Shown here piece after piece: positions 931 to 31,823 of a stretch of DNA of 64,000 nt (its first letter is position 1; every line of letters starts with the position of its first letter). The stretch covers positions 67,547 to 131,546 of the forward strand of contig DBPX01000022.1 in assembly GCA_002305045.1 (NCBI GenBank). Direction: 5' to 3'. The notes beneath the pieces are model-generated. The model searched no databases, had not been told where the DNA came from, and saw nothing but the letters and a program-made list of their open reading frames with translations. The position numbers were made by a program, and so were the translations under genes. The DNA comes from Ruminococcus sp. UBA1409. Lineage in GTDB: Bacteria; Bacillota; Clostridia; Oscillospirales; Ruminococcaceae.

Positions 931-1088
931 GTGCAAAGGCAGCCGCCACGGCTTTCGCCGTGGCTTATGGATTGCCTGCCCGCTATAAAAAAGCCTCCCG
1001 AGGCTTCCCGGGAGGCGCATAATTGCAGGCTCTTAAGAAATTCTAAGGGCAATCCATCGGTCAGCGTCGCTGACAGCTGCCTTTGCAT
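931..1088. repeat. Four-way-junction element, copy A
   Basis: This 158-base element folds into four helices around one junction. P1 pairs 932-943 with 1076-1087 (12 bp). P2 is a hairpin, 945-952 with 957-964, with a TTTC loop. P3 pairs 967-976 with 1048-1057 (10 bp). P4 is a hairpin, 1060-1065 with 1069-1074. Linkers between helices are only one or two bases. A second copy at 31664-31823 keeps the same helices while several pairs change together (G-C to T-A and C-G to G-C in P1, A-T to C-G in P2, G-C to T-A in P3). It sits between the convergent argF and purL genes, and its P3 arm carries a terminator for the minus strand. I do not recognise it; it could be a structured RNA, a DNA cruciform or a degenerate MITE. 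Confidence 0.75.
987..1016 (-). terminator. Intrinsic terminator inside element A, minus strand
   Basis: GCCTCCCG (993-1000) pairs with CGGGAGGC (1009-1016). On the minus strand the hairpin is followed by six T (A-run 987-992). It lies in the P3 arm of the junction element, about 200 bases past the purL stop, and could act as a back-up terminator for the purine operon. Confidence 0.75.
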
Positions 1089-1145
1089 GAGCGGGATTCC
1101 CCATCAAGCTTCGAATAAGCTATCACCGCCGTCAGGCGGGCTTAT

Positions 1146-1177
1146 CTGCGAAGCAGCCTAGCTTGCCGTCAGGCGAA
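1146..1177. repeat. Shared 32-bp hairpin module, copy A
   Basis: This 32-base stretch matches 31533-31564 in 28 of 32 positions. It contains the small hairpin CTGC-GAAG-CAG and the string GTCAGGCGAA. Both copies lie in the same two intergenic regions as the four-way-junction element, but on opposite sides of it. Confidence 0.6.
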
Positions 1178-1211
1178 AAACCAGCCGAGCGCCTATTAGA
1201 GCACTCGGCTG
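1175..1211 (-). terminator. Intrinsic terminator of the purine operon (after purL)
   Basis: CAGCCGAG (1182-1189) pairs with CTCGGCTG (1204-1211); on the minus strand the stem is followed by GGTTTTTC (A-run 1176-1180). It starts 7 bases after the purL stop codon. Confidence 0.85.
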
Positions 1212-1217
1212 TCTGCT

Positions 1218-4200
1218 TTACTTAAAGTAGCTCACTGCCGCCTCGAACATCCTAAGGTCGTAGTTGCCGGGGACATTCCTGTACAGCCCGGAGCCTATTC
1301 TTTCGGAGTGACCCATCTTGCCGAACACCCTGCCGTCGGGGGAGGTTATGCCCTCGATGGCGTAGGCGGAATCGTTGGGGTTGAAGCGGATGTCGCCTGT
1401 GGCGTTGCCGTCGAGGTCGACATACTGCGTGGCTATCTGGCCGTTTTTGGCAAGCTCCCTAATCTGCTCCTCACTGGCAAGGAATCTTCCCTCGCCGTGG
1501 GATATCGGGACGCTGATAATGTCTCCGACATTTACAAGGCTCAGCCAGGGCGACTTGTTGGAGGCTACCCTTGTCCTTACTATTCTCGACTGGTGGCGGC
1601 TTATTGTGTTGAAGGTGAGCGTCGGGCAGTCCTTATCGGTGTCGATTATCCTGCCGTAGGGCACTAGTCCCAGCTTTATTAGAGCCTGGAAGCCGTTGCA
1701 TATTCCGCAGATTAGACCGTCCCTCTTTTCAAGGAGTGCCGTCACGCCCTCCTTAATCTCGGCGTTTCTGAAGAAGGCGGTTATAAACTTTCCGCTTCCG
1801 TCAGGCTCGTCTCCGCCGGAGAAGCCTCCGGGGATGAATATCATCTGTGCGGTCTCAAGGCTCCTTGCGAAGCCTTCGACGCTTCTTTGTATGCCCTCAG
1901 CCGAGAGGTTGTTTATGACCAGTATCTTAGGCTCTGCGCCGGCGTCTAGGACAGCTTTTGCGCTGTCATACTCGCAGTTTGTGCCGGGGAAGGCGGGAAT
2001 CAGCACGGTAGGCCTTGCAGTCCTTACAGCCGGAGCCCTGCGCTCTGAGGCGGTGTAGCTGAAGTTCTCGAAGCTGGTGCCGCTGTTCTTGATGTTGCAG
2101 CTGTAGACACTCTCGAGCTTGTCCTCGTAGACCTTTAGAAGCTCGTCAAGAGCTACCGACTCCTCTGCAAGGGAGATTCTGCCGTCGTCCGTGGTGAAGC
2201 CAAGAAGCTCGCCCTCGGTAGCGTCGACAGTCTCTAGGATAAACGAGCCGTAGCTGTAGCCAAAGATATCCTCGGCGCTGACGCCCTTGCTGTAGCTGAA
2301 GCCGACAGAGTTTCCGAAGCACATCTTCATGACCGCCTCGGCGATGCCTCCCATTCCGGGAGTGTAGCAGGCTACCGCCTTTTTGGAGCGAAGAAGCCCT
2401 GTCACGGTGTCAAACAGCTTTAAAAGGGAGGCTGTCGTCGGCAGACCGTTCCTATCAAGCTCGGGACGAAGAATTACGACCCTGTGACCCTTGTCCTTAA
2501 ACTCGGGAGATACTATGCTGGAGGCCTTCTCGGTGGTCACCGCAAAGGATACGAGCGTGGACGGGACATCCAGCTTCTCGAAGCTTCCGCTCATCGAGTC
2601 CTTTCCGCCTATTGCGCCTATTTTCAGCTCAAGCTGAGCCTTGAAGGCTCCTAAAAGCGCCGCAAGAGGCTTACCCCAGCGCTTGGGGTCCCTGCCGGGA
2701 TGCAGGAAATACTCCTGGAAGGTAAGATAAACATCCTTAAACTCAGCGCCTGTTGCTATGAGCTTGCATACCGACTCTACTACAGCCAGATATGCTCCGT
2801 GATAGGGGCTTTGGTCGGTTATGAACGGGTTGTAGCCAAAGGACATCAGCGAGCAGTCGTCGGTGTGCTTTTTCTCCACCGATATCTTCTGTACCATCGC
2901 CTGTATCGGGGTGAGCTGGTTTTTGCCTCCGAACGGCATAAGCACCGTTCCTGCGCCTATCGTGGAGTCAAACCTCTCGGAAAGTCCCCTCTTTGAGCAG
3001 ATGTTTAGGTCTCCCGCAAGCTCCAAATAGCCCTCCCTGAAGGAGCCGCAGACCTTCTTTTTGACCTCCGACGCCGCCTCGCAAGACGCCGTTATGTGCT
3101 TGGGAGCGCCGTTTGAGTTTAGAAAGTCACGGCTGATGTCCACAATCCTTCTGCCGTTCCAGTTCATGACAAGCCGCTTTTCCTCCTTGACGACTGCGAC
3201 CTGGCACGCCTGGAGGTTTTCGCTCGCAGCAAGCTCCAAAAATCTGGGAAGGCTTTCCTTTTCGATGACCACCGCCATGCGCTCCTGGGACTCGCTTATT
3301 GCAAGCTCTGTGCCGTCAAGGCCCTCGTACTTCTTGGGGACGGCGTTAAGGTCTATTTCAAGACCGTCTGCAAGCTCTCCTATAGCCACCGAGACTCCGC
3401 CCGCTCCGAAGTCGTTGCACCTTTTTATCATCAGGCAGGCTTCCTCGTTTCTAAACAGCCTCTGGAGCTTTCTCTCCTCCGGGGCGTTGCCCTTTTGGAC
3501 CTCGGCTCCGCAGCTTTCCAGTGACTTCTCGGTGTGGGACTTAGAGGAGCCGGTTGCGCCTCCGCAGCCGTCACGCCCGGTGCTTCCGCCGAGCAGCACC
3601 ACGATGTCCCCGGGGGCGGGAACCTCTCTTCTTACATTCTTAGCGGGAGTAGCGGCAATTACCGCACCTATTTCCATCCTCTTGGCGGCGTAGCCGGGAT
3701 GGTATATCTCGTCGACTATTCCTGTAGCAAGACCTATCTGGTTGCCGTAGGAGGAATAGCCTGCGGCGGCTGTGGTGACAATCTTTCTCTGCGGGAGCTT
3801 GCCCTTTATAGTCTCGCTTATCGGCTTGAGAGGGTCGGCAGCTCCAGTGACCCTCATGGCTCCGTAGACATAGGACCTGCCTGAGAGCGGGTCTCTTATA
3901 GCTCCGCCTATGCAGGTTGCCGCTCCTCCGAACGGCTCTATCTCGGTGGGATGGTTGTGGGTCTCGTTTTTAAAGAGCAGCAGCCACGGCTCGCTCACGC
4001 CGTCCACCTCGACATTTATCTTGACCGTGCAGGCGTTTATCTCCTCCGACTCGTCAAGCTTGTCCAAAAGACCGTCTGCTCTTAGCTTCTTTACGGCTAT
4101 GGTGGCAATATCCATGAGGCAGATGGGCTTATTCCTGCCAAGACTCCTTCTTACCTCCAGATACTCCTCGTAGGCGCTCTGCAAAAGCTCATCCTCGAAG

Positions 4201-4904
4201 CTCACCCCGTCTATCTCGGTGAGGAAGGTGGTGTGGCGGCAGTGGTCGGACCAGTAGGTGTCTATCATCCTGATTTCGGTTATGGTGGGGTCACGCTTTT
4301 CAGACCTGAAATACTCCTGACAGAAGGCGATATCGTCTAGGTCCATGGCAAGAGCATATTCCGAGACAAAGTCCTCAAGCCCCTTTCTGTCAAGCTCTAT
4401 GAAGCCCTCAAGAGTTCTGACGGCGGTGGGAATGTCATAGCTCACGGCGAGGGTCGCCGGCTTTTCAAGGGACGCCTCCCTTGCCTCAACCGGGTTAATG
4501 ACATACTTTTTAATCTGGGCAAGCTCCTCGTCGGACAGCTCGCCGTAAAGGGCATACAGCTTTGCGGTGCGGATAAGAGGCCTTTCGCCCTGAGAGATTA
4601 TCTGTATGCACTGGGCGGCAGAGTCCGCCCTCTGGTCAAACTGACCGGGCAGGTACTCGACCGCAAACACTCTTGCGCCGTCTAGCTCGACCTCGTCCGA
4701 GGCGATATCTAGCTGAGGCTCCGAGAAAACCGTTTTTATTGCGTAGTCAAAAAGCTCCGGCGAGATGTTTTCAGCGTCGTAGCGGTTGATTATCCTGACA
4801 TCCCTTAAAGCTTCGATTCCCAAAAAGGCTCTGGCATCCGAAAGGAGCGCCTTTGCCTCATGGGAAAGCTCCTTCCTTTTTTCTACATAAACTCTGTAAA
4901 CCAT
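1218..4904 (-). CDS. purL: Phosphoribosylformylglycinamidine synthase, single-chain PurL-PurQ
   Basis: FGAM synthase converts FGAR, glutamine and ATP to FGAM, the fourth step of purine synthesis. At 1228 residues this is the long single-chain form, with N-terminal and two synthase domains followed by a C-terminal class I glutamine amidotransferase equivalent to PurQ. The amidotransferase nucleophile is in GLICGICNGFQAL (about residue 1065), and SHGEGRF follows (about residue 1140). Synthase motifs such as KNETHNHPTEIEPFGGA and GGVSVAIGELADG are intact. A separate purS or purQ is therefore not needed, and none is seen. It is the last gene of the operon, 41 bases after purD, and its own glutaminase half is complete, unlike that of the PurF homologue upstream. 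Confidence 0.97.
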   Translation of the reverse strand: MVYRVYVEKRKELSHEAKALLSDARAFLGIEALRDVRIINRYDAENISPELFDYAIKTVFSEPQLDIASDEVELDGARVFAVEYLPGQFDQRADSAAQCIQIISQGERPLIRTAKLYALYGELSDEELAQIKKYVINPVEAREASLEKPATLAVSYDIPTAVRTLEGFIELDRKGLEDFVSEYALAMDLDDIAFCQEYFRSEKRDPTITEIRMIDTYWSDHCRHTTFLTEIDGVSFEDELLQSAYEEYLEVRRSLGRNKPICLMDIATIAVKKLRADGLLDKLDESEEINACTVKINVEVDGVSEPWLLLFKNETHNHPTEIEPFGGAATCIGGAIRDPLSGRSYVYGAMRVTGAADPLKPISETIKGKLPQRKIVTTAAAGYSSYGNQIGLATGIVDEIYHPGYAAKRMEIGAVIAATPAKNVRREVPAPGDIVVLLGGSTGRDGCGGATGSSKSHTEKSLESCGAEVQKGNAPEERKLQRLFRNEEACLMIKRCNDFGAGGVSVAIGELADGLEIDLNAVPKKYEGLDGTELAISESQERMAVVIEKESLPRFLELAASENLQACQVAVVKEEKRLVMNWNGRRIVDISRDFLNSNGAPKHITASCEAASEVKKKVCGSFREGYLELAGDLNICSKRGLSERFDSTIGAGTVLMPFGGKNQLTPIQAMVQKISVEKKHTDDCSLMSFGYNPFITDQSPYHGAYLAVVESVCKLIATGAEFKDVYLTFQEYFLHPGRDPKRWGKPLAALLGAFKAQLELKIGAIGGKDSMSGSFEKLDVPSTLVSFAVTTEKASSIVSPEFKDKGHRVVILRPELDRNGLPTTASLLKLFDTVTGLLRSKKAVACYTPGMGGIAEAVMKMCFGNSVGFSYSKGVSAEDIFGYSYGSFILETVDATEGELLGFTTDDGRISLAEESVALDELLKVYEDKLESVYSCNIKNSGTSFENFSYTASERRAPAVRTARPTVLIPAFPGTNCEYDSAKAVLDAGAEPKILVINNLSAEGIQRSVEGFARSLETAQMIFIPGGFSGGDEPDGSGKFITAFFRNAEIKEGVTALLEKRDGLICGICNGFQALIKLGLVPYGRIIDTDKDCPTLTFNTISRHQSRIVRTRVASNKSPWLSLVNVGDIISVPISHGEGRFLASEEQIRELAKNGQIATQYVDLDGNATGDIRFNPNDSAYAIEGITSPDGRVFGKMGHSERIGSGLYRNVPGNYDLRMFEAAVSYFK

Positions 4905-4924
4905 CTTTTATCCATACCTCTCCG

Positions 4925-4942
4925 TGCGGCGCAGTCGCCGCA
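4925..4942. other. Small hairpin between purD and purL
   Basis: TGCGGCG (4925-4931) pairs with CGCCGCA (4936-4942) around a four-base loop. There is no T-run on either side. A similar small hairpin occurs at 23803-23822, so it may be a scattered mini-repeat or an mRNA-processing or stability element. Confidence 0.5.
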
Positions 4943-4945
4943 TTA

Positions 4946-6214
4946 CTAGTCTTTTAAGGCTTCAAGCGCCCTCTTTCCTATGTCATGGCGGTAATAAGCA
5001 TTCTCAAAGCTGATTTTCCCTGCCATATTGTAGGCGGCGTCAACAGCCTCGCTCAGGCTCTTTTTTACTGCGGTGACGCCAAGCACCCGTCCCCCACTGG
5101 TGACAAGCCTGCCGTCTTTTAGCTCTGCTCCTGCGATGTACACGCTGTCAGAAAGCTCCTGCGGGATAAAAATCTCACAGCCCTTTTCATATGCGCCGGG
5201 ATATCCCCTCGACGCCATGACCACACAGCAGGCTGAGCCTGACCTGAAGCGGACCTCGAGGTCGCCGAGCCTTTCCTCGGTCACCGCCTGCATGATGGTA
5301 AGAAGGTCGGTCTCGAGCATAGGAAGCACCACCTGAGTTTCGGGGTCGCCGAAGCGGCAGTTATACTCGATTACCTTAGGGCCGTCCTTTGTGAGCATCA
5401 GCCCGAAGTAAAGGCAGCCCTTAAAGCTCCTGCCCTCCTGATTCATGGCGTTTACGGTGGGGAGGAATATCTCGCTCATGCACCTTTTGGCTATTTCGTC
5501 TGTATAGTAGGGATTGGGAGCTATAGTCCCCATTCCGCCGGTGTTGAGTCCCTTATCGCCGTCAAGAGCACGCTTATGGTCCATAGAGGAGAGCATTGGG
5601 ACTATCGCTTTGCCGTCGGTAAAGGAAAGCACCGAGACCTCGGGTCCCTCCAAATACTCCTCTATTACGATCCTCTCGCCGCTTGCGCCGAACTTTCTGT
5701 CCTCCATTATCTCCCTGACGGCGTCCTTTGCCTCCTCGAGGCTAAAAGCGATTATCACTCCCTTGCCAAGAGCAAGACCGTCCGCCTTGATGACCGTGGG
5801 GATAGGGGCGCTGTCAAGGTACTCAAGAGCCGCCTGCGGACTATCAAACACCTCGTATTTTGCCGTTGGGATGCCGTACTTTTTCATGAGGTTCTTTGAA
5901 AAGACCTTGCTTCCCTCTATAATGGCGGCTTTTTTGTTAGGACCGAAGCAGGGTATCCCCTTTTGCTCAAGAGCGTCCACACAGCCGAGCACCAAGGGGT
6001 CGTCCGGCGCAACCACGGCGTAGTCGACGCTTTTTTTCACGGCGAAGTCGACTATCCCGGGGATGTCCTTAGCCCCTATTGCTACGCACTCGGCGTCCGC
6101 CGAGATTCCGCCGTTTCCCGGCAGTGCGTAGATTTTTTCAACGCTTTTGTTCTCTTTTAGCTTTTTTATTATGGCGTGCTCCCGTCCCCCGGAGCCTACT
6201 ACTAATATCTTCAT
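4946..6214 (-). CDS. purD: Phosphoribosylamine-glycine ligase
   Basis: GAR synthetase joins glycine to phosphoribosylamine with ATP, the second step of purine synthesis. It has 422 residues, the usual length. The N-terminal part begins with the nucleotide-fold motif KILVVGSGGREHAI, followed by the ATP-grasp region with VIKADGLALGKGV (about residues 142-154) and the metal-binding end of the fold, IEYNCRFGDPETQ (about residues 287-299). It lies between the AICAR transformylase gene (19-base gap) and purL (41-base gap), all on the minus strand, as expected for one transcript. Its substrate, phosphoribosylamine, would come from the unusual PurF homologue of the same operon. Confidence 0.97.
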   Translation of the reverse strand: MKILVVGSGGREHAIIKKLKENKSVEKIYALPGNGGISADAECVAIGAKDIPGIVDFAVKKSVDYAVVAPDDPLVLGCVDALEQKGIPCFGPNKKAAIIEGSKVFSKNLMKKYGIPTAKYEVFDSPQAALEYLDSAPIPTVIKADGLALGKGVIIAFSLEEAKDAVREIMEDRKFGASGERIVIEEYLEGPEVSVLSFTDGKAIVPMLSSMDHKRALDGDKGLNTGGMGTIAPNPYYTDEIAKRCMSEIFLPTVNAMNQEGRSFKGCLYFGLMLTKDGPKVIEYNCRFGDPETQVVLPMLETDLLTIMQAVTEERLGDLEVRFRSGSACCVVMASRGYPGAYEKGCEIFIPQELSDSVYIAGAELKDGRLVTSGGRVLGVTAVKKSLSEAVDAAYNMAGKISFENAYYRHDIGKRALEALKD

Positions 6215-6233
6215 ACCCGCTCACCGCTTTCTA

Positions 6234-7418
6234 TCAGTGATGGAACAGCCTCATGCCGGTGAACGCCATAACCATGTTATAGCGGTTGCAGCGCTCTATG
6301 CAGACATCGTCCCTTATCGAGCCGCCGGGCTGTGCTACATACAAGACTCCGCTGCGGTGCGCCCTCTCGATGTTGTCGTCGAAGGGGAAGAAGGCGTCCG
6401 AGCCGATGGAGACTCCCTTTATCGAGTCGAGATACTCCCTTGCCTCGCTGTCAGTAAGAGGCTCGGGACGGACGGTAAAGTATTTCTGCCATACTCCGTC
6501 CGCACAGACATCCTCCTCGTTTTTGTTAATATAGCCGTCTATTACATTGTCCCTGTCCGGCCTTTTTACGCTGTCCTTAAAGGGAAGCCCCAGCACCTTG
6601 TCGTGCTGACGCAGGAACCAGGTGTCCGCCTTTGTTCCGGCAAGACGGGTGCAGTGGATTCTCGACTGCTGACCCGCTCCGACGCCTATCGCCTGTCCGT
6701 CGTAGGCGTAGCAGACCGAGTTGGACTGGGTGTATTTTAGGGTTATCAGGGAGATGATAAGGTCCCTCACTGCGGACTCGGGCAGCTCCTTGTTGTCTGT
6801 TACTATGTTGTTAAGAAGCTCCCTGCCGATTTTAAAGCTGTTTCTTCCCTGCTCGAAGGTTATGCCGTAGACATGCTTTCTCTCGATAGGCTCAGGGCGG
6901 TAATCAGGGTCGATTTTAACGATGTTGTAGGCTCCGTTCTTCTTTGACTTGAGGATGGATAAAGCCTCCTCCTCGTAGCCGGGAGCGATTACGCCGTCAG
7001 ATACCTCCCTTTTAATGAGCTTTGCGGTTGTCACATCGCAGACATCCGAAAGAGCTACCCAGTCGCCGAAGGAGCACATTCTGTCCGTTCCTCTTGCCCT
7101 TGCGTAGGCGCAGGCCAGAGGCGAGGAGTCAAGCTCCTCGATGTCGTCGACGAAGCAGGCTTTTTTTAGCTTGTCTGAGAGCGGGATGCCGACCGCCGCA
7201 GAGGTCGGGCTGACATGCTTGAAGGAGGTCGCTGCGGGAAGCCCCAGAGCCTCCTTCAGCTCCTTGACGAGCTGCCAGGAGTTAAAGGCGTCCAAAAAGT
7301 TGATATATCCCGGTCTGCCGTTGAGAATCTCTATAGGCAGGTCCTCGCCTGAGTCCATAAATATCCTAGAGGGCTTCTGATTGGGGTTGCAGCCGTACTT
7401 GAGTTCAAATTCCTTCAT
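6234..7418 (-). CDS. purH: AICAR transformylase without the IMP cyclohydrolase domain (PurH C-terminal type)
   Basis: The 394-residue product matches only the formyltransferase half of PurH, which adds formyl from 10-formyl-THF to AICAR. Visible family motifs are LKYGCNPNQKP at the start, SFKHVSPTSAAVG (Lys-His of the active site, about residues 66-78), and GAGQQSRIHCTRLAG with the final AQPGGSIRD. The MGS-like IMP cyclohydrolase domain that normally occupies the first 200 residues is absent. The gene immediately upstream, one base away, encodes a PurO-type IMP cyclohydrolase, which supplies the missing last step. The start at 7418 is at the beginning of the conserved domain, so this is a genuine stand-alone form and not a truncation. 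Confidence 0.93.
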   Translation of the reverse strand: MKEFELKYGCNPNQKPSRIFMDSGEDLPIEILNGRPGYINFLDAFNSWQLVKELKEALGLPAATSFKHVSPTSAAVGIPLSDKLKKACFVDDIEELDSSPLACAYARARGTDRMCSFGDWVALSDVCDVTTAKLIKREVSDGVIAPGYEEEALSILKSKKNGAYNIVKIDPDYRPEPIERKHVYGITFEQGRNSFKIGRELLNNIVTDNKELPESAVRDLIISLITLKYTQSNSVCYAYDGQAIGVGAGQQSRIHCTRLAGTKADTWFLRQHDKVLGLPFKDSVKRPDRDNVIDGYINKNEEDVCADGVWQKYFTVRPEPLTDSEAREYLDSIKGVSIGSDAFFPFDDNIERAHRSGVLYVAQPGGSIRDDVCIERCNRYNMVMAFTGMRLFHH

Positions 7419-7419
7419 T

Positions 7420-8145
7420 TTAATCCTCCTTGGTGTATTTGTTTATAAGCCTTGTTTCCTCCCTGCCGGTTTTCAGGTCGGTGTATACTACATAAAGGGA
7501 AATCTTGTTGCTCTCGTCGAGATTATCCCACAGCTCGGCTGTAAGCTCGTCTATATCGTTGGGTATTGCAACCCTTTCCGGCTCGCCCTGGAAGGTGGGG
7601 ATCGGGCTGCCGTCGCAGACATAGGTGTGGATAAAGTGCCCCACTCCCTTTACAGGACTGTAGGAGAAGGTGTAGCGGTTGCAGCCGGAGCCGGACTCGT
7701 CCGCACTTTTTAGTATGCTCATCTGGTAGCTGTAGCCGCCGTCGAAGCTGAGCATTGCGCTTATCCTGGGGGTGAGATTGGGAGCGTCAGGCTCGAACTG
7801 CCTTGCAGCAAGCGACTCGCTGAAGCTCTTTCCCGCCTTAACGCCGTCGTAGACGGTGTCGGTCTGGTCGCCGTTGGTGACGATAAGACTGCCCTGAAGC
7901 CTTCTTACCGCAGCGTAGATTATCAGGCTGGGGTCCTCAACCTTAGAGGGGTCAAACGGCTCGGTGAAGAGCGCTCCGTCACGCTCGGTGAATACTCTGT
8001 TTCTGCTGTTTTCGCTCCTGCCCATTATGAAATAGGCGGCGACTGCACTGCTGCCGTCCTCGCTAAGACCCGCAACGATTCCTCTTCCGGGGTAGCTGTT
8101 GCCTCTGAGCCTATCCCCGATTCTTTCTAGGGCGTAAACATTCAT
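7420..8145 (-). CDS. purO: IMP cyclohydrolase, PurO family
   Basis: This 241-residue protein resembles the archaeal-type IMP cyclohydrolase PurO, which closes FAICAR to IMP. Features that point there are the start with the NSYPGRGIVAG segment (about residues 16-26), the conserved YFIMGRSENSRNRVF stretch, the NGDQTD motif (about residues 92-97), and PRISAM in the middle. It is not related to the MGS-like cyclohydrolase domain of bacterial PurH. It ends one base before the start of the transformylase-only PurH, so the two together replace bifunctional PurH. PurO was first described from archaea; I believe clostridial copies exist. Assignment rests on recalled family motifs and this context. Confidence 0.88.
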   Translation of the reverse strand: MNVYALERIGDRLRGNSYPGRGIVAGLSEDGSSAVAAYFIMGRSENSRNRVFTERDGALFTEPFDPSKVEDPSLIIYAAVRRLQGSLIVTNGDQTDTVYDGVKAGKSFSESLAARQFEPDAPNLTPRISAMLSFDGGYSYQMSILKSADESGSGCNRYTFSYSPVKGVGHFIHTYVCDGSPIPTFQGEPERVAIPNDIDELTAELWDNLDESNKISLYVVYTDLKTGREETRLINKYTKED

Positions 8146-8162
8146 CTAAATGACCTCCAAAC

Positions 8163-8774: not shown

Positions 8775-8791
8775 CTCAAGACCTCCAAAAG

Positions 8792-22218: not shown

Positions 22219-22232
22219 CCTCCTATATAAAA

Positions 22233-24040: not shown

Positions 24041-24865
24041 CTATACGCCCTTCCCCGCCGACGGCACGGCAAGCTCTTCGTGGGAAGAAAAGCCTCTTCC
24101 TAGGCTGTATTTGAGCCGTATCCTGTCGACTATCAGGGCGATAAACTCGCTGTTTGTCGGCTTGCCCTTGCCGGTGTTGACGGTATAGCCGAAGAAGGAG
24201 TTTAGCGTCTCGACATCTCCACGGTCCCAGGCTATCTCGATTGCGTGGCGTATCGCCCTTTCCACCCTTGAGGGCGTGGTGGAGAACTCCTTGGCGACCG
24301 TGGGATACATCAGCTTTGTCACCCTCTCCAGCATATCCGGGTCCGAAACCGAGTGGATTATCGCCCTCCTGAGATAGTGATACCCCTTTATATGCGCCGG
24401 GACGCCCAGCCTGTGTATCATCTCGGTGACGACAAGCTCGATATCCGGGACCTCTCCCGTGACCGAGGTCCCCCTCGAGCCGGAGCCTATGTCAAAGCCT
24501 AAAAGCTGGCTTATCCTCTCCTTTAACAGCCTCGGCTCAAACGGCCTCACAAGGTAGTAGGCGGCTCCCTCCTGCATAACCTGCCTGAGGGCAAACTCGT
24601 TCTCGCAGGGGGCGGTTATTATGAACACCGGGCGTCTTGACTGGGACTTTGAGAGCCTTCTCATAAGCTCTATTGCGTCCATGCCGGGCATCCACAGCTC
24701 GGCGACCACTACATCCGGGGACTCCTGCATACAGCCCTCGTAGACGGCGGGACCCTCCTTCGGCCTCACCAGGCAGAAAAATCCCGCAGCCCTCAGCTCG
24801 GCGGCGCATCTCAGACCGAACTCCTTTGTGTTGTCACCGATAAGCACCTTCAGCTTTTTTGACAT
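24041..24865 (-). CDS. spo0A: Sporulation response regulator Spo0A with an altered phosphorylation site
   Basis: Spo0A is the master transcription factor of sporulation, normally activated by phosphorylation of an Asp in its receiver domain. The C-terminal DNA-binding half is canonical, with TPSRVERAIRHAIEIAW, FFGYTVNTGKGKPTNSEFIA and the recognition region. In the receiver (residues 1-125), the acceptor segment reads DVVVAELWMPGMD where B. subtilis has DVLVLDIIMPHLD, so the acceptor Asp is Glu. The acidic pocket is reduced to GDN (one Asp replaced by Asn), and the conserved Lys before Pro is Arg (VRPFE). Thr in ITAP is kept. The Glu codon is GAG, confirmed by reading the DNA. I take the ATG at 24865 (AGGA 9 bases upstream); 24871 is an alternative. 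The sequence suggests an acceptor-independent or constitutively active regulator. Confidence 0.95.
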   Translation of the reverse strand: MSKKLKVLIGDNTKEFGLRCAAELRAAGFFCLVRPKEGPAVYEGCMQESPDVVVAELWMPGMDAIELMRRLSKSQSRRPVFIITAPCENEFALRQVMQEGAAYYLVRPFEPRLLKERISQLLGFDIGSGSRGTSVTGEVPDIELVVTEMIHRLGVPAHIKGYHYLRRAIIHSVSDPDMLERVTKLMYPTVAKEFSTTPSRVERAIRHAIEIAWDRGDVETLNSFFGYTVNTGKGKPTNSEFIALIVDRIRLKYSLGRGFSSHEELAVPSAGKGV

Positions 24866-24948
24866 TTTCATCTATCCTTTCCTGTAGCTTTATTTTTGGC
24901 TTTCAGATTAAACGAGGCGTTATCCGCTCTTTTATCTGTCTTTTCCAT

Positions 24949-24977
24949 ATTTTAACATACACGCCGAAATTAATCAA
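24949..24977 (-). promoter_or_regulatory. Promoter of spo0A
   Basis: On the minus strand TTGATT (24972-24977) and TAAAAT (24949-24954) are 17 bases apart, with TG just before the -10 (extended form). The start point would be near 24942, giving a leader of about 75 bases. Confidence 0.75.
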
Positions 24978-25046
24978 GGCATTTCATCAATTTTTCCAAT
25001 CTTTGGATAGATGAACAAAAACTCTGAAAAATATTTTTAAGCCGCC

Positions 25047-25053
25047 TGTCGAA
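25047..25053 (+). promoter_or_regulatory. Candidate 0A box upstream of spo0A
   Basis: TGTCGAA, the core of the Spo0A recognition sequence, occurs once in the 334-base gap, about 70 bases upstream of the -35 box of spo0A. Autoregulation through such sites is known in Bacillus. A single 7-base match can be chance. Confidence 0.45.
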
Positions 25054-25157
25054 GGCTGTAAAATAAGCGGGACTTTTCGTCTGTAGACACTAAATATAGT
25101 GTTTTACCCGGATTTAAACCGATATATGGGACTCTCGCCGCCCATTTCGTCGGGGAG

Positions 25158-25191
25158 AAAAAACAGCGTCCCCCTAAGCTAGGGACGCTGT
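25158..25191 (-). terminator. Intrinsic terminator of the GNAT gene
   Basis: ACAGCGTCCC (25163-25172) pairs with GGGACGCTGT (25182-25191); on the minus strand the stem is followed by TTTTTTC. It starts 8 bases after the acetyltransferase stop codon. Confidence 0.9.
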
Positions 25192-25199
25192 ATTATCTC

Positions 25200-25769
25200 T
25201 TATTTCCACGGAAGCTCCCTCTTATACGGCATGACGGGCGGCTGGTCCTCCCTCCTAGGAGCTATCCTTTTTTCCATCCAGACCATATCGTACCATCTTC
25301 CGAACTTCCTGCCGCAGGCCTTAAACTCCCCCACGGCGGCAAAGCCCATATGCCTATGAAAGCTCAGGCTGTTGTCGGTTAAATACTCGTCCGCAGGGCT
25401 TGGGACTCCGACGCAGGCAAACAGGCTCACAATCCCCATTTTCAAAAGAGCCGCCTCCATCACCCCGTACAGAAGTCTGCCGATGCCGAGACCGACAGCC
25501 TCCCTGTCAAGATATATGCTAAGCTCACAGCACCAGTCGTAGGCCGCCCTGCCGACAAATGCTCCGGCGTAGCAGTATCCCTCCACCCTGCCGTCCCTCA
25601 CGGCGACAAAATAGGGGTATTTCTTCACCGTTTTTTCCATCCTTGAAAGAATCTCCTCCGGGGTCGGCGAGAGGTATTCAAAGGAGACTGCGGTGTGCTT
25701 TACATAGTAGTCGTATATCTCTGATATCCTGACGGCGTCCTTTGGCAGAGCCTCTCTTACCGTAATGAT
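25200..25769 (-). CDS. GNAT acetyltransferase (phosphinothricin-acetyltransferase-like) with a non-AUG start
   Basis: A GNAT enzyme transfers acetyl from acetyl-CoA to an amine. The motif VGLGIGRLLYGVM (acetyl-CoA loop), then SLSFHRHMGF and GRKFGRWYDMVWM, resemble the phosphinothricin/methionine-sulfoximine acetyltransferase branch. The first ATG in frame (25640) would remove the first strand and helix. The frame is open upstream to 25856, and the part from 25769 reads as a normal GNAT start, with ISEIYDYYVKHTAVSFEYL. No ATG, GTG or TTG exists in that extension. AAGGGAG (25779-25786) stands 9 bases before an ATC (25769) and 12 before an ATT (25766), so initiation at one of these is likely. 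It follows the PFL gene closely on the same strand and ends at a strong terminator. Confidence 0.8.
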   Translation of the reverse strand: MITVREALPKDAVRISEIYDYYVKHTAVSFEYLSPTPEEILSRMEKTVKKYPYFVAVRDGRVEGYCYAGAFVGRAAYDWCCELSIYLDREAVGLGIGRLLYGVMEAALLKMGIVSLFACVGVPSPADEYLTDNSLSFHRHMGFAAVGEFKACGRKFGRWYDMVWMEKRIAPRREDQPPVMPYKRELPWK

Positions 25770-25786
25770 AAAAACCAGCTCCCTTT

Positions 25787-27142
25787 TTAGTTCTTGAGGC
25801 TGTGAAGCGGAGCGGGAATCTGACCGCCACGGCTTATAAACTTGGAGGGGGACATTTTATTCACCCTCATGACGGGTCCGCAGCCAAACAGACCGCCCCA
25901 GTCAAGCTCCTCGCCGACATCCCTTCCTATAGCGGGAATAACCCTTACTGCGGTGGTCTTTGAGTTCACCATGCCTATTGCCGCCTCGTCTGCTATTATT
26001 GCGGCGATGGTGTCAGCCGAGGTATCGCCGGGGAGGACTATCATATCAAGTCCCACCGAGCATACAGCCGTCATCGCCTCGAGCTTTTCTATGCACAGCG
26101 CTCCGCTCTTTGCGGCGGCTATCATCCCTGAATCCTCCGAGACGGGTATGAAGGCTCCCGAAAGCCCTCCTACCGAGGAGCACGCCATGACTCCGCCCTT
26201 TTTGACGGCGTCGTTCAGAAGAGCCAGAGCCGCAGTCGTGCCGGGCGCTCCGCACTGCTCAAGACCTATCTCCTCGAGAATATGAGCCACGCTGTCTCCG
26301 ACCTGCGGAGTGGGAGCGAGCGAGAGGTCGACTATCCCGAACGGGACTCCCAGCCTCTGGGAGGCGGTCACTCCGACAAGCTGACCCACCCTTGTTATCT
26401 TGTAGGCGGTGGTCTTTATTATGTTTGATATCTCGTTGATGTCCGCCCCGGGATTTTTAGCAAGTGCGGCTCTTACCACTCCCGGACCCGAGACTCCGAC
26501 ATTTATAATGCAGTCAGGCTCGCCGACTCCGTGATAGGCTCCCGCCATGAAGGGGTTATCGTCCACCGAGTTGCAGAAAACAACAAGCTTTGCCGCACCG
26601 AAGCAGCTTGAATCAACGGTCGCCTCGGCGGTCTGCCTGATTATCCTGCCCATGATACGGCAGGCGTCCAGGTTTATTCCTGCCTTTGTTGAGCCGATGT
26701 TTACCGAGGAGCACACCCGTGAGGTCTCGCTGAGTGCCTGCGGGATAGACTCTATCAGCCTCATGTCCCCGGCGGAGAAGCCCTTTTGGACCAGCGCCGA
26801 GTAGCCGCCGATTAGATTTACTCCGACTGCGCTTGCCGCCTCGTCCATAGCCCTTGCCAGCATGACAGGGCTGCCCTCGCACGCCGCTGACACCATGGCG
26901 ATAGGCGTCACCGATATCCTCTTGTTGATTATCGGTATGCCGTACTCCTTTTCTATCTCCTCGCCCACCCTTACAAGGTCCTTTGCCCTTTGGGTTATCT
27001 TGTCATATACCTTAGAGCAGGCACGGCTGATGTCGGTATCTATGCAGTCAAGCAGGGAAATACCCATGGTTATCGTCCTGATGTCAAGACATTCGTCCTG
27101 AATCATTCTGATGGTTTCAAGTATATCGCTTAAATTAATCAT
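25787..27142 (-). CDS. PFL/UPF0210 family protein
   Basis: This 451-residue protein belongs to the UPF0210 (PFL, DUF711-related) family of unknown biochemical role. The start, with [22 protein letters not shown] split over residues 6-27, the ISLLDCID segment and a glycine-rich C-terminal half are typical. It is probably cytoplasmic; no signal peptide or membrane segment is visible. The ACT-domain gene 174 bases upstream on the same strand is its usual companion in Firmicutes and other bacteria, suggesting that a small-molecule-binding ACT protein regulates or joins it. The GNAT gene follows after 17 bases. Length is normal and the frame is intact. Confidence 0.9.
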
Positions 27143-27316
27143 CCTTAATCCCTTCCCGGCAGGAGGAGTAGGACAGCCAAATTGACCTGAAAATTCCCCT
27201 GGCTGTCACCAAAATGTCACCACGGTGCTTTATAGTGCCGTATGTAAGCATTGCAGCGCCGCTCCTGCGCTTTATAATTTAGCCTCTTCGCTTTAAAGCC
27301 TAACCGGCGCCGTCGG

Positions 27317-27586
27317 CTAGATGTGGTGCATGGTGTTGAAGATATCCTCATGCATGACATAGATTGACAGTCCCATGCTCTTCCCAAGCTCGCTCATCCT
27401 GTCGGACAGCTCAGCCAAGGGTATCGAGAGTGCGGAGATGTCAACCAGCATTACCATAGCAAAGACATCCTGCAAAACCGACTGAGTGACCTCGGTGACA
27501 TTGGCGTTGTGCTCTGCACAGACCGCAGAAACCCTGGCGAGGATTCCGACGGCGTCCTTTCCGATAACCGATATTACAGCCTTCAT
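27317..27586 (-). CDS. ACT domain protein (UPF0237)
   Basis: A single ACT domain of 89 residues, a fold that usually binds amino acids and regulates partners. It begins KAVISVIGKDAVGILARVS, followed by the NVTEVTQSVLQDVFAMVMLVD strand-helix region (kept here as positions about 29-49). It is the usual neighbour of PFL/UPF0210 genes, and the pair is separated by 174 bases carrying only small GC-rich hairpins. The ligand is unknown. A good RBS-like AGG precedes the ATG. Confidence 0.9.
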   Translation of the reverse strand: MKAVISVIGKDAVGILARVSAVCAEHNANVTEVTQSVLQDVFAMVMLVDISALSIPLAELSDRMSELGKSMGLSIYVMHEDIFNTMHHI

Positions 27587-27732
27587 AAACTCTTACCTGT
27601 CCTTTCGCTCAGTTAATGGCTTCTAAGCCCTGAAATTCGACCTTGATTATAGCATATTTTTTCTTTGTGTACAAGTACCCTGTAATAATTTGTGCGCCGT
27701 GCAAGGAGGTCCTAAGATAAGCCGCCTTTTTG

Positions 27733-28902
27733 TCAGGAGTATTCGCTAAGAAGCTCTCCAAGGCTCATTCCTACAAGCCTGCCGGCGTATAAAGCCTCGT
27801 CTAGGGAGTTGGCGCTTGAGCCGACCTCAATTAAGAGAGAGCCTTTTGTAAGCTCCTGATTGTAGTTTCTGTCGGCTACAAGAATCGGCCTTGTCAGTCC
27901 GGGATAGTCCTTTTCAAGCTTGGACTGTATCTTAGACGCAAGCCTGAGATTGTAGCGGTATCTCGGGACATTTGTACAGCCGCAGACTATCATGACCTGT
28001 GCGGCGGAGCGTCCGTCGACCTCGCAGACGGGAGCGTATCTCACCCCGGAGTCCTCCATGGCGTCCCTGTGTATGTCAAGGACTATTTTCACGGTGGGGT
28101 ACTCCTCAAGAAGGCTTATGACCCGCTCCGAGCTTCTGTCATAGGCTCCAGAGTACCTTGGATAGTCGTGAACGGCGGTGTCGTGTATAACTCCGATTCC
28201 TGCCGCCTCCAGAGCGTCGGCTATCTCCCTGCCGACGGCGACGACGCTCTTGTCAAGCTCGGTGGTGCGTGAGGAGAACTCGCTGTCGTAGCTCTCCCTT
28301 TGGTACGGCTCGTAGCATTCTGTCGTGTGAGTATGCATAATTATAACCTGCGGCGAGCCGTCAAGGGATATTTCAAGCTCAGGCTCCCTTTCTAACTGCT
28401 CCTTTATGTACTCCATGTCGCTCGAGGAGCTGTTTCTCAGCATCCCGCCGCCGGGAAGCTCTATACAGCTCGAGGAGGGAGTGTAGCTATAGGTCCGCCT
28501 GATTATCCTGCCGCCGTCGGAGTTAAGGGCGTCAGGATAGGGAAGCGGCTCTTTCGGCTCCTCGTTTGGGTCCTCGGGGTCCTCAGCCTCGGCAGGCGAA
28601 TCTCCTAGACTCTGATAAGGGCGATATCCTCCGCCGCCTTCCATGAGCTCAAAAAGCCGGCTGTAATCCGGGTATCCGCCGTCTGCGGAGTCCGCCGTGT
28701 CTGTCTGCGAGGACTCCGTAAGCTGTGGGAAGGACAGCGCCATCGAGCCTCCCGACGCCTCGCTCACAAGCCTGAAAAGACCTCCCGTACCCTTTAAAAA
28801 GAGGGTCAGCCCCACGCCGTACAGCACCGCAAAGGCGAAAAGCCCTCCTGCCGCAAACTCCGTAATGCTCTTTTTGAAACCCGGTCTTTGCATATAAGCC
28901 AC
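27733..28902 (-). CDS. spoIIP: Stage II sporulation protein P
   Basis: SpoIIP is a peptidoglycan amidase and endopeptidase that works with SpoIID and SpoIIM to drive engulfment of the forespore. The 389-residue product has one N-terminal membrane segment (about residues 14-33), a variable acidic/proline linker (to about residue 165), and a C-terminal hydrolase domain. That domain has the zinc-type motif VIIMHTHTTECYEP (about residues 187-200), VLDIHRDAM and LIEVGSSANSLDEA. All visible metal ligands (His, Glu, His) are present. The gene is divergent from the VanY-like gene, with 108 bases between the two start codons. A sigma-E promoter was looked for and only a weak CATAAGAA-like -10 was seen. 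Confidence 0.95.
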   Translation of the reverse strand: MAYMQRPGFKKSITEFAAGGLFAFAVLYGVGLTLFLKGTGGLFRLVSEASGGSMALSFPQLTESSQTDTADSADGGYPDYSRLFELMEGGGGYRPYQSLGDSPAEAEDPEDPNEEPKEPLPYPDALNSDGGRIIRRTYSYTPSSSCIELPGGGMLRNSSSSDMEYIKEQLEREPELEISLDGSPQVIIMHTHTTECYEPYQRESYDSEFSSRTTELDKSVVAVGREIADALEAAGIGVIHDTAVHDYPRYSGAYDRSSERVISLLEEYPTVKIVLDIHRDAMEDSGVRYAPVCEVDGRSAAQVMIVCGCTNVPRYRYNLRLASKIQSKLEKDYPGLTRPILVADRNYNQELTKGSLLIEVGSSANSLDEALYAGRLVGMSLGELLSEYS

Positions 28903-28943
28903 CTTTCTTATGCTTTATTAACTAAAAACTTTTAAAAATTGTC

Positions 28944-28972
28944 TGGACAACTTAGCAAATATGTGCTAAAAT
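28944..28972 (+). promoter_or_regulatory. Promoter of the VanY-like lipoprotein gene
   Basis: TGGACA (28944-28949) is followed after 17 bases by TAAAAT (28967-28972), with TG just before the -10. The -35 box overlaps a palindrome, TTGTC-TG-GACAA, that could be an operator. Confidence 0.75.
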
Positions 28973-29010
28973 GTGATTGGCGAAAATATACTCTAAAGGA
29001 TTTGATTAAA

Positions 29011-30048
29011 ATGAAGAATATAAACCCCAGGGCTTCAGCCCTTATCCTAGCGGCGGCGATGCTTCTATCCGGCTGCAGGTCGGCAGTGCATCCTTCGCCG
29101 GGAAGCGGCAATTCCCTAGCATCGGGCGAGGCTCTTATCACCGCTGAGCCGGACCAAGGCGCCGAGAGCGGGTCTGGCGATGCCTTTTCGCCTGCTTCAA
29201 GCGAGGAAACGGCACCCTCGGAAAGCGAGTCCCTGGAGCCTGATGTCACCCTCCCCGAGTCCGAGTCTGAATCCGAGTCGGAGTCGGAATCTGAATCCGA
29301 GCCGGAATCTGAGCCGGAGTCTGAGCCGGAGCCGTCCTTGGAGGAGGAAGAGCCGTCCTACGAATCAGTCGGCGGGGAGTCCGGGGATGCTAAGGAGGAT
29401 ATTGACATAGACGCATCGGACAACGGCTACATCTTCAGCGAGGAGGACGACTTTTTCTTCCTTGTCAACAAGCAGTATCTTCTGCCGGAGGACTACGAAA
29501 TCGAGACCGAGACGGTGCAGGGCAGCTACGAGATGGAAAAAACCGCCGCCAAGTACATGAGGCAGATGATAGAGGCAGCCGCCCAGGACGGCATCGAGCT
29601 TAAGGTGATGTCCGCATACAGGACGGTGAGCTATCAAAAGAGGCTTTTCGAGCGGAATGTAAGCTCCCGGATGGAGAGCGGCATGAGCTACGACGAGGCC
29701 TACTACGACACCTCTATCAACATAGCTCCTCCCGGCGGGAGCGAGCACAACGCAGGTCTTGCAGCTGACATCATTGACACCGACCACTGGGACACCTACA
29801 CCGCCTTCGAGGACACAAAGGAGTTTGCCTGGCTCCAGGAGCACGCCTGGGAGTACGGCTACATTCTAAGATATCTAAAGGGAAAGGAGGAGATAACCGG
29901 CTATATCTACGAGCCGTGGCACTACAGGTATGTCGGCGTGAAATACGCCAAGGCTGTGAGGGACAGCGGACTCTGCCTCGAGGAATACTTTGAGGAGTAT
30001 GTCCTAAGCGAGGGGGAGGAGCCTAGCTTCCCGTGGCAAAAGCCCTGA
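29011..30048 (+). CDS. Lipoprotein D-alanyl-D-alanine carboxypeptidase, VanY-like
   Basis: The protein starts at 29011 (AAAGGA 10 bases upstream; an ATG at 28939 lies ahead of the promoter). It has a lipoprotein signal with lipobox LSGC (Cys about residue 23), a long acidic linker rich in alternating Ser-Glu and Glu-Pro (about residues 60-115), and a C-terminal VanY/peptidase M15 domain. The domain shows SAYRTVSYQKRLF, SEHNAGLAADI (zinc His and Asp) and EPWHYRYVG (second His). It should trim the terminal D-Ala of peptidoglycan on the outside of the cell. The Ser-Glu repeats are encoded by near-repeats of TCCGAG/TCTGAA (29255-29335) and probably vary in length. The gene is divergent from spoIIP. 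Confidence 0.92.
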   Translation: MKNINPRASALILAAAMLLSGCRSAVHPSPGSGNSLASGEALITAEPDQGAESGSGDAFSPASSEETAPSESESLEPDVTLPESESESESESESESEPESEPESEPEPSLEEEEPSYESVGGESGDAKEDIDIDASDNGYIFSEEDDFFFLVNKQYLLPEDYEIETETVQGSYEMEKTAAKYMRQMIEAAAQDGIELKVMSAYRTVSYQKRLFERNVSSRMESGMSYDEAYYDTSINIAPPGGSEHNAGLAADIIDTDHWDTYTAFEDTKEFAWLQEHAWEYGYILRYLKGKEEITGYIYEPWHYRYVGVKYAKAVRDSGLCLEEYFEEYVLSEGEEPSFPWQKP

Positions 30049-30120
30049 GGGAGTCCCTACAAAGGGAGGTCCTAAAAGGGTAAGCAGAACCTTTTTAACG
30101 ATTAATCAAAGGAGCAAATC

Positions 30121-30570
30121 ATGAATATAGCATTTTTCCTGACAATCAAACAGGATGTCGCCTATGTGTATGAGGACAGCTCTATCCGTCAGGCGCTCGA
30201 AAAGATGAGGCACCACGGATATACGGCTATCCCTGTTATATCAAGGAACGGAAGGTATGTCTCGATGGTGACGGAGGGAGATTTTCTTTGGTTCATGCTC
30301 GACAGAAGCACAGAGGACATCAACGGAGTCTCCATCTATGACGCCGAGGAGCTGTCCCTGAAAAGCATACTCAGGGAGAACTCGGCAAGGGCCGTTAGGA
30401 TAACCGCCTCGATGGAGGAGCTTTTGGAGCTTGCCATGAATCAGAACTTCGTCCCGGTGACCGACGACGACGGAGTATTCATCGGGATTATCACCCGAAA
30501 GAACATCATGAGGCAGTTTATCAAGAGCACCGTCATGTCCTCCTCGGCGGTGGGTCAGGGAAAAGAATAG
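30121..30570 (+). CDS. CBS-domain pair protein
   Basis: The 149-residue protein consists of two CBS motifs: one at about residues 10-60 (VYEDSSIRQALEKMRHHGY then IPVISRNGRYVSMVTEGD), the second at about residues 80-135 (ending VTDDDGVFIGIITRKNI). Such pairs bind adenine nucleotides and usually regulate a partner. There is no catalytic or membrane part. It follows the VanY-like gene by 72 bases on the same strand with AAAGGAG before the ATG and no clear promoter, so cotranscription is likely. A link to cell-wall metabolism is only contextual. Confidence 0.88.
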   Translation: MNIAFFLTIKQDVAYVYEDSSIRQALEKMRHHGYTAIPVISRNGRYVSMVTEGDFLWFMLDRSTEDINGVSIYDAEELSLKSILRENSARAVRITASMEELLELAMNQNFVPVTDDDGVFIGIITRKNIMRQFIKSTVMSSSAVGQGKE

Positions 30571-30758
30571 CCCAAGCCGGGAAAAATATCTGTCGAAACG
30601 GCGGCGCTTAGAGTCCTGCGGTGAAATTTGATTCCGAATACGGCACTCTGCACTTTGACTGCGGCTCTTTAACGCCTCTTTACATGGAAATTTCACCAAA
30701 TTTAAAAAATAAAACTGTACATTTATTACAATGTTATATAAAACAGCACAATAATTTA

Positions 30759-30787
30759 TTGACAACTGCCGCTTTTCGGATTATAAT
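30759..30787 (+). promoter_or_regulatory. Consensus SigA promoter of the small lipoprotein gene
   Basis: TTGACA (30759-30764) and TATAAT (30782-30787) are both perfect and 17 bases apart. This is the strongest promoter in the window by sequence. The AT-rich region upstream (30690-30758) may act as an UP element. Confidence 0.92.
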
Positions 30788-30841
30788 TATCTTGCGATTA
30801 TTCCAATCGACAAAACAAAATATATCGGGGGATTAATTCAA

Positions 30842-31222
30842 ATGAAAAAATTAATTTCTGTAGCGCTCGCCTTCGTAATGGTTATGTGTCTGTTTACCGC
30901 CTGCGGAGCGGCTGTTCAGCCTGCCGGCACCTACGCCGACCAGTACGGTACCTCTATCGTTGAGATTGGGGCTTACGACGCTAAGGAGGAAACCGGCAGC
31001 TTTAAGATGACCAACACCCTTAACGAGGACATTCTCCTTGAGGGAAGCTACACTCTTGAGGTCTGCGAGTCTGACATCTCCAGCTGGGTCGATGTCACCC
31101 TTACCGACGGAACTACCATGACCTTCCTTTACGATGTCACCATGGATGTTCTTCAGGACCAGAACTCTCTTATCAACTACTTCGGTCCTAACGCATCCCA
31201 GGAGGAGGCTCCCGCAGCCTAA
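30842..31222 (+). CDS. Small lipoprotein of unknown function
   Basis: The 126-residue product has a lipoprotein signal (KKLISVALAFVMVMCLF then lipobox TACG, Cys about residue 20), an acidic beta-rich body and the tail EEAPAA. I do not recognise a family. Its 16-kDa soluble part, perfect promoter and GGGGGA ribosome site 9 bases before the start suggest high expression. The codon choice is strongly biased to a few codons (for example ACC, CTT, GAC), as in abundant proteins. It is followed by a structured 3' region and two terminators. It may be a major surface lipoprotein. Confidence 0.8.
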   Translation: MKKLISVALAFVMVMCLFTACGAAVQPAGTYADQYGTSIVEIGAYDAKEETGSFKMTNTLNEDILLEGSYTLEVCESDISSWVDVTLTDGTTMTFLYDVTMDVLQDQNSLINYFGPNASQEEAPAA

Positions 31223-31249
31223 GACGAAGTCTTGTCTTATTAGACGAGG

Positions 31250-31340
31250 TACTGCAGGACCTTGTCCTTAGTGCAGGGTCTTAGCTGACGCCGTCTTAGC
31301 CGCTCTTGGCAGATACCGCCCTTGTGGCGTCAGCCGCCAA
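31250..31340 (+). other. Structured 3' region after the lipoprotein gene
   Basis: Two stable folds follow the stop codon: CTGCA...TGCAG enclosing GGAC/GTCC (near 31253-31277), and CTGACGCC (31285-31292) with a perfect match GGCGTCAG (31326-31333). No ribosome site or gene is visible. It could be a 3'-UTR-derived small RNA or a stabilising structure. Confidence 0.5.
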
Positions 31341-31365
31341 AGCCGGCAGGAGTTAAAGATGCACT

Positions 31366-31417
31366 ACAGCCCGAACGCTCAGGCTTTGCCCAGCAGTGTC
31401 GGGCTGTTCGTCTTTTT
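31366..31417 (+). terminator. Intrinsic terminator after the small lipoprotein gene
   Basis: ACAGCCCGA (31366-31374) pairs with TCGGGCTGT (31399-31407), with a small inner GGC-TTT-GCC hairpin, then TCGTCTTTTT. Confidence 0.88.
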
Positions 31418-31448
31418 GGCTCTCTGCGGGATTCAACCGTCAAACATT

Positions 31449-31484
31449 AAAGCACCGCCAAATTACTGACGGTGCTTTTCTTTT
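31449..31484 (+). terminator. Second intrinsic terminator
   Basis: AAAGCACCG (31449-31457) pairs with CGGTGCTTT (31470-31478), followed by TCTTTT. It is a back-up to the terminator 60 bases upstream. Confidence 0.88.
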
Positions 31485-31532
31485 GGCTGTACTTCCTGCA
31501 GGCTAAAGGACCGACCTTGCCTCCCCGCCAGG

Positions 31533-31564
31533 CTGCGAAGCAGCTTAACTCGCTGTCAGGCGAA
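31533..31564. repeat. Shared 32-bp hairpin module, copy B
   Basis: It matches 1146-1177 in 28 of 32 bases (CTGCGAAGCAGC...GTCAGGCGAA). Further degenerate hairpins with GCGTCAGCCG and CTGCGAAGCAAAG follow to about 31620. Confidence 0.6.
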
Positions 31565-31663
31565 TTTCACTGCAAAGCAATGCCACTCGGCGTCAGCCGA
31601 AATACCGCTGCGAAGCAAAGCCCTCCCAACCGCTCCATCCCACAGAGCAAAGCCGCCCCGGAT

Positions 31664-31823
31664 ATGCAAAGTGAGCCGCCCCGGCTTCAGCCGGGGCGGA
31701 ATGATTGCCGGTTAGCGGGGAGGACAGCCTCCTGCCGTATCTTAGGGGGTGCGTGGGTGTCAGGCTTTAATAAGACCTGCCCGGCAATCAATCGGTCAGC
31801 TAAGCTGACAGCTCACTTTGCAT
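31664..31823. repeat. Four-way-junction element, copy B
   Basis: This is the second copy of the element at 931-1088. P1: 31665-31676 with 31811-31822 (12 bp, extended by one A-T pair). P2: 31677-31685 with 31690-31698 (9 bp, TTCA loop). P3: 31702-31711 with 31781-31790 (10 bp). P4: 31795-31800 with 31804-31809 (6 bp, TAA loop). The P4 stem is identical to copy A, with a different loop; changes in P1, P2 and P3 are compensated. The P3 interior (69 bases) is unlike that of copy A. As with copy A, it lies between convergent genes (the small lipoprotein gene and typA). No ORF or recognised RNA family is evident. Confidence 0.75.

Follow-up and report, generated by a model that had tools for sequence, protein, structure and literature searches.

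Two positions in the window (the whole stretch of DNA analysed, 64,000 nucleotides) fold into one and the same arrangement of four helices, and the question raised by this locus is what keeps that fold. The preliminary description left it open between a structured RNA, a DNA cruciform and a protein target, with a MITE as the alternative. Conservation of the fold was borne out, and a dispersed DNA repeat is now favoured because there are many copies, because units occur both singly and in pairs, and because orthologous sites are found empty as well as filled.

Two copies in the window

Refolding of copy 1 (931-1088) gave an RNA MFE of -92.1 kcal/mol (z -7.4) and of copy 2 (31664-31823) -92.9 kcal/mol (z -6.9), with 0 of 200 shuffles equally good in each case, in agreement with the common P1-P4 layout first proposed. 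The paired changes reported between the copies (P1 G-C to T-A and C-G to G-C, P2 A-T to C-G, P3 G-C to T-A) and the identical P4 stems with differing loops were all read directly in the sequences. The P3 interiors had been called unrelated; they are homologous, with AGCCTCC...GGAGGC...CAGGCT common to 22 aligned copies. No Rfam family reached its gathering score in the window. The features are as follows.

931-943, + strand: copy 1, P1 left arm, partner 1076-1088
945-964, + strand: copy 1, P2 hairpin, loop 953-956 (from fold)
967-976, + strand: copy 1, P3 left arm, partner 1048-1057 (from fold)
993-1016, - strand: copy 1, terminator-like hairpin within P3, then six T on the minus strand
1048-1057, + strand: copy 1, P3 right arm (from fold)
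1060-1074, + strand: copy 1, P4 hairpin, loop 1066-1068 (from fold)
1076-1088, + strand: copy 1, P1 right arm (from fold)
1089-1113, + strand: copy 1, outer tail of type T2, common to other copies (L005, z 10.0)
31664-31676, + strand: copy 2, P1 left arm, partner 31811-31823
31677-31698, + strand: copy 2, P2 hairpin, loop 31686-31689 (from fold)
31702-31711, + strand: copy 2, P3 left arm, partner 31781-31790 (from fold)
31712-31780, + strand: copy 2, P3 interior, homologous to the interiors of other copies; no terminator-like site found
31781-31790, + strand: copy 2, P3 right arm (from fold)
31795-31809, + strand: copy 2, P4 hairpin, loop 31801-31803 (from fold)
31811-31823, + strand: copy 2, P1 right arm (from fold)
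31824-31854, + strand: copy 2, outer 3' stretch carrying the motif TTATCAARCT

The motif TTATCAARCT had seven matches in the genome, all seven adjoining element copies. Copy 1 is flanked convergently by ORF 120-821 (+, OTCace domains) and ORF 1218-4904 (-, FGAR-AT type), and copy 2 by ORF 30842-31222 (+, no Pfam match) and ORF 31891-33723 (-, BipA/TypA). A position between convergent genes therefore holds for both window copies but not for the family: with a simple ORF caller, 11 of 27 scored copies were convergent, 16 tandem and 0 divergent. All 27 were intergenic, a few overlapping short ORFs.

Copy number and conserved pairing

The own genome (G000; 1.74 Mb in 22 contigs, 88.5% complete) was searched with a P4/P1 pattern allowing up to 3 mismatches, which matched 24 places (reversed control, 0). 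A covariance-model search, as the preliminary description had proposed, was run with a model built from 22 complete copies and gave further copies in the own and in related genomes. At E <= 1e-10 it placed the element at 29 or more distinct sites in the own genome, where two copies had been claimed; this is a lower bound because 150 of 837 first-look candidates were scored, and the high scores arise partly by construction, the model rows being among the matches. Matched though outside the model were L048, L049, L051, L001, L014 and two places on C20; L001 and L014, whose 5' arm is not intact, were left out of the 22-row alignment, and the two C20 places are absent from the ORF-context count and the tail test below. 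The spread is uneven, with 17 of the 29 places on three contigs totalling 205 kb (p 2e-9, contigs chosen post hoc). A public contig labelled 'uncultured Oscillospiraceae bacterium' (L025), of the same species, is 99.76% identical to L013 over 1630 bases.

Across the 22 complete copies, 97.9% of 814 pair cells were paired, against 92.7% after shuffling, and pairing fell to 28.5-41.3% in a control with partners slid by 1-3 columns. Changes on both sides of a pair were seen in 39 cells compared with 10.8 in shuffles that ignore the relatedness of copies (0 of 500 as high), and fell on 12 of 37 pairs, which belong to P1, P2 and P3. The inference that the fold is kept by compensated changes thus extends from two to 22 copies, and the dispersed-palindrome pattern is real and larger than first stated. 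P4 is invariant in the 22 rows, in part because the retrieval pattern includes it; among 117 distinct units its first inner pair varies outside the species (A-T 58, G-C 30, T-A 24, G-T 2, other 3). The closest pair within the alignment is 0.90 identical, so that the copies are old or fast-changing, which was counted against a mobile-DNA reading.

Unit architecture and occurrence in other genomes

The element is assembled from units of roughly 50 bases, each made up of one hairpin (P2 or P4) and, next to it, one half of a closing stem. In relatives and viral contigs, units of the first type read CAATCCCTCAGTC-loop-GACAGCTCCC, with a terminal hairpin ending GGGAGCC; units of the second type carry CCTCCACC or CCTCATCCGTC. 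The four-way element combines a first-type with a second-type unit, both facing inward, and the two inverted units pair through P1 on the outside and P3 on the inside to give the four-way junction. The terminal hairpins can no longer be made out in the units of the own copies, so that P1 forms between one unit and the other. Relatives hold solitary units and both inward- and outward-facing pairs.

The covariance model matched 17 of 60 related genomes, the own included, mostly weakly. Of 147 genomes of the order, 37 carried the unit pattern (control, 1 match in total), most often G042 (62 units); 37 is an upper figure because in some genomes, G055 for example, the single match has little stem. 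Among 299 genomes sampled from the phylum the pattern occurred in four, namely G048, of the same order, and three with single matches, which were counted as chance because they equal the control number (3), although two could gain one or two stem pairs. Within this one order, many genomes have their intergenic space filled with repeats of this build. Elsewhere than in the own genome, units sometimes lie within predicted ORFs, and eight outside this species lie between divergent ORFs.

Viral contigs contained 35 stretches with the unit pattern, and units stand singly and in pairs there as in other genomes. The 50-base unit matched 3 of 50,697 phage records and no plasmid. The flanks of two viral units were compared with phages, one giving three records at 67-71% identity and the other none, and two exact gapped patterns for empty sites had 0 matches each in viral contigs. 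A motif-seeded search for full elements gave 40 matches, mostly chance, and was abandoned. A structure-only search gave 67 matches in 823 kb of loci against 4 in 457 kb of shuffled sequence, and serves as illustration only, as chance matches remain and many loci were picked for having units.

Site occupancy and core orientation

One intergenic site was anchored by its neighbouring sequence, in which ten congeners are 88-94% identical to G030 (G021 and G023, at 73-77% identity, were unreadable and left out). Of these eleven genomes, two were empty (G025, G027), eight held units and one, G006, held only a different palindrome (TGTAGGGGCGG...). Of the eight, three (G008, G013, G024) had a single unit, G030 had an inward-facing pair, three (G001, G002, G029) had pairs or clusters, and G019 combined the other palindrome with a unit. 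The spacer between bipA and acpP could be located at 9 of 30 congener loci: it was empty in G006, G013, G024 and G030, held one unit in G008 and G025, and held pairs or clusters in G027, G029 and G002. Because occupancy of orthologous sites varies among congeners, units come and go. In this spacer the G025 unit is enclosed by an outer stem of 8 pairs, and the altered outer stem in G008 retains 6 Watson-Crick pairs, with one G-T and one mismatch. Window copy 2 likewise lies behind bipA, with a neighbour other than acpP.

The T2 tail lies on the right in L003, L005, L007, L013, L015 and L022 (z >= 9) and is reversed, on the left, in L016, L020 and L048 (z >= 8.8) and at lower score in L051, L023 and L017 (z 4.6-6.0). 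The other tail lies on the left in L003, L007 and L011 and on the right in L016, L017, L020 and L048 (z 5.0-14.4), and several copies show neither. L003, L013 and L017 are not independent in this test because the tail strings derive from them, the 5' tails of L018 and L014 were not counted because the position of the 5' arm was misplaced or guessed, and L001 was unscored. Since the tails switch sides reciprocally among copies, the core stands in either orientation between the same tails; one inversion event followed by spread would suffice for both orientations.

Comparison with known systems and search for a mobiliser

Y1 transposase (PF01797) had 0 matches in the own genome, which is 88.5% complete. 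Clear units near a Y1 gene were found in 1 of 20 regions (from 17 of the 20 genomes with both), that region being in G042; L222, also a Y1 region, contained one degenerate unit match. Over 147 genomes, Y1 was present in 20 of 37 unit-positive genomes versus 32 of 110 others (p 0.009), and by hand-made classes the association had p 0.04 (strong) and p 0.26 (weak); it was not built on, because there is little physical linkage. Four genes that, from their motifs, we take to be RAYT-like have palindromes of the GTAGGGG type within or next to their reading frames, a family different from the units.

The preliminary description knew of no family with this layout, whereas REPINs have it: the sections of PMC3116915 on which we draw describe inverted REP doublets in which compensatory changes are common, and one figure legend names a 'clover' fold. 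The element resembles REPINs in its inverted pairs of palindromic units folding on themselves, singlets beside doublets, compensatory changes, ends better conserved than the spacer, and the clover fold (the same sections of PMC3116915), and resembles both REPs and REPINs in its short palindromic units in many copies (at least 29 places), mostly intergenic. It differs in that the GTAG tag at the unit end is absent from the units read, that the own genome has no RAYT/Y1 match and units do not flank Y1 genes in 19 of 20 regions, that two different unit types make up one pair, and that the core is reversible between its tails. The element works like a REPIN but is not classed as one, since the GTAG tag and the Y1 features fail.

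The CGTC and GTAG REPs of PMC3733652, in the part of that article used here, are likewise short dispersed palindromes forming dimers, both head-to-head and tail-to-tail; according to that article the CGTC type is without a dedicated transposase, a lack that the present element would share. The main text of PMC3733652 is without the words Firmicutes or Clostrid-. The second unit type has CCGTC at the foot of its stem in several relatives and in the own copies, at least partly paired, whereas the CGTC tag of REPs is defined as unpaired and at one end. Palindromic candidate RNAs from the human microbiome, as given in part of PMC8040213, number 250 that fold on both strands, 230 of them predicted terminators, and the remaining 20 may be REPs or another class. 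Our literature search gave no recognised description of repeats of this build, and the letters of the unit matched no paper.

Proposed mode of spread

The element is best read as a dispersed, REPIN-like, probably mobile DNA repeat, and we put the probability of the mobile-DNA reading as a whole, with no enzyme specified, at roughly 0.68. On this reading units and pairs would be non-autonomous mobile DNA that spreads when a trans-acting enzyme recognises the folded single strand or cruciform. Pairing would be kept because well-paired elements get recognised, and copying between the arms may contribute. Where P3 contains a terminator-like hairpin, as in some copies, that hairpin would be a passenger and may render insertion behind genes harmless. 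Such a repeat would be a REPIN-like system without RAYT, offering a setting in which to seek the mobiliser. It is possible, though unlikely, that this is a separate, undescribed small-DNA mobility system of the order, in which pairs of units are mobilised as DNA folded into the four-way junction (cruciform or single strand) by some junction-recognising enzyme other than Y1/RAYT, and the core can flip between the P1 arms.

DNA or RNA

If the + strand transcript of each copy were a structured RNA, the four-way fold would be selected in RNA, and the strong covariation would be expected. FMN riboswitches served as control (28 of 30 loci; L180, with a short flank, and L207, the weakest, were omitted). 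Divergence was similar, with a mean identity of 0.74 for the riboswitches and 0.72 for element copies, and double changes numbered 42 in 24 pairs and 36-42 in 37 pairs, respectively. Because the control has similar double changes, covariation does not separate DNA from RNA, and compensated changes in a dispersed palindrome alone do not prove a functional RNA. In 16 of 22 copies the + strand is slightly the more stable (p 0.048), compared with 23 of 28 riboswitches, and units located within predicted ORFs are mostly on the sense strand (sense:antisense 18:5 in viral contigs, p 0.011; 8:0 in G042; 3:2 in others), as might be the case for an RNA. Beside tandem genes there was no strand bias of units (22 same, 24 opposite, three groups).

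Against an RNA stand the non-Watson-Crick cells, of which G-U made up 8 of 29 or 14 of 31, by pairing choice, versus 14 of 20 in the riboswitch (p 0.004 or 0.095). The ratio of G-T to A-C cells in the element was 14:4 as folded and 8:7 if column 16 pairs with column 39, as the covariation of column 16 suggests, and 14:1 in the 28 riboswitches (Fisher p 0.35 and 0.035, respectively). These ratios and the strand-stability comparison weakly favour the DNA level. No promoter-like site was found near either window copy, and none of the 27 scored copies lies between divergent genes. A structured RNA is thus improbable.

Other explanations

A classical MITE would consist of the terminal inverted repeats of a DDE-type insertion sequence, whose transposase would move it and duplicate the target. 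The element is small and dispersed, P1 and P3 form inverted repeats at or near its ends, and congeners have empty sites, all as in MITEs; it differs in being modular, with units that are also solitary or outward-facing. No consistent target-site duplication was seen by eye at two loci, where the species compared are too distant for exact boundaries, and no parent element was seen in a search limited to Y1. We regard a MITE origin as quite improbable.

Arm-to-arm correction of palindromes during replication could make paired changes in a fold that is unselected. In keeping with this, changes on both sides outnumber intermediates in the nested palindrome of the 22 copies, and L049 has several adjacent P1 bases altered on both arms. 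Transversional double changes, considered as a mark of such correction at the DNA level, were rejected because the riboswitch has them at the same rate (18 of 42, versus 16 of 36 or 16 of 42 in the element). Correction as the sole cause is also rendered highly doubtful by the free divergence of loops and P3 interior while stems remain paired (mean pairwise identity over 22 copies: stems 0.90, P3 interior 0.58, hairpin loops 0.38).

A role as an intergenic insulator or bidirectional transcription terminator would suit the 11 convergent and 0 divergent copies among 27 and the minus-strand terminator-like hairpins, which with loops of up to 16 were found in 10 of 22 P3 interiors (shuffled mean 0.3, maximum 3) and with loops of up to 9 in 4 of 22 (shuffled mean 0.6, maximum 3), yet it is very improbable, as 11 of 22 copies, copy 2 included, are without a terminator-like site in P3 on either strand and in the 24 copies scanned the 15 bases beyond the ends contain no run of five T. 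Both genes beside copy 1 have closer terminator-like sites of their own, at 849-873 (+) and 1211-1182 (-).

Distribution and sequence neighborhood of the element

Three contigs of the genome holding the window, C6, C16 and C20, which together comprise 205 kb of its 1.74 Mb, carry 17 of the 29 element places found. Small hairpins in a row adjoin copy 2 at window positions 31538-31610 on the minus strand and bear a likeness to Gut-1 RNA (33.3 bits, E = 1.3e-4, under the gathering score of 50 bits).

Palindromes in other genomes

At four congener loci (L059, L073, L075 and L079), element units were fused with other hairpin modules, GACTTGGC...GCCAAGTC and CAAGTTTGGC...GCCAAACTTG, forming a palindrome mosaic. 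One intergenic site in congeners G006 and G019 (loci L208 and L217) was occupied by a second palindromic family, TGTAGGGGCGGATATTATCCGCCCG...CGGGCGGATAATATCCGCCCCTACA. Two congeners contained the four-way layout in nested palindromes unrelated to the element in sequence:

L168, 3365-3954, nested palindrome
L170, 1138-1219, nested palindrome

GTAG-type palindromes (GTAGGGG...), a family other than the element units, were located within or at the edge of RAYT-like (Y1) reading frames, named so from motifs, in other genomes of the order:

L220, 1994-2185, RAYT-like gene with GTAG-type palindromes
L226, 2100-2332, the same
L227, 2103-2297, the same
L221, 2171-2623, the same
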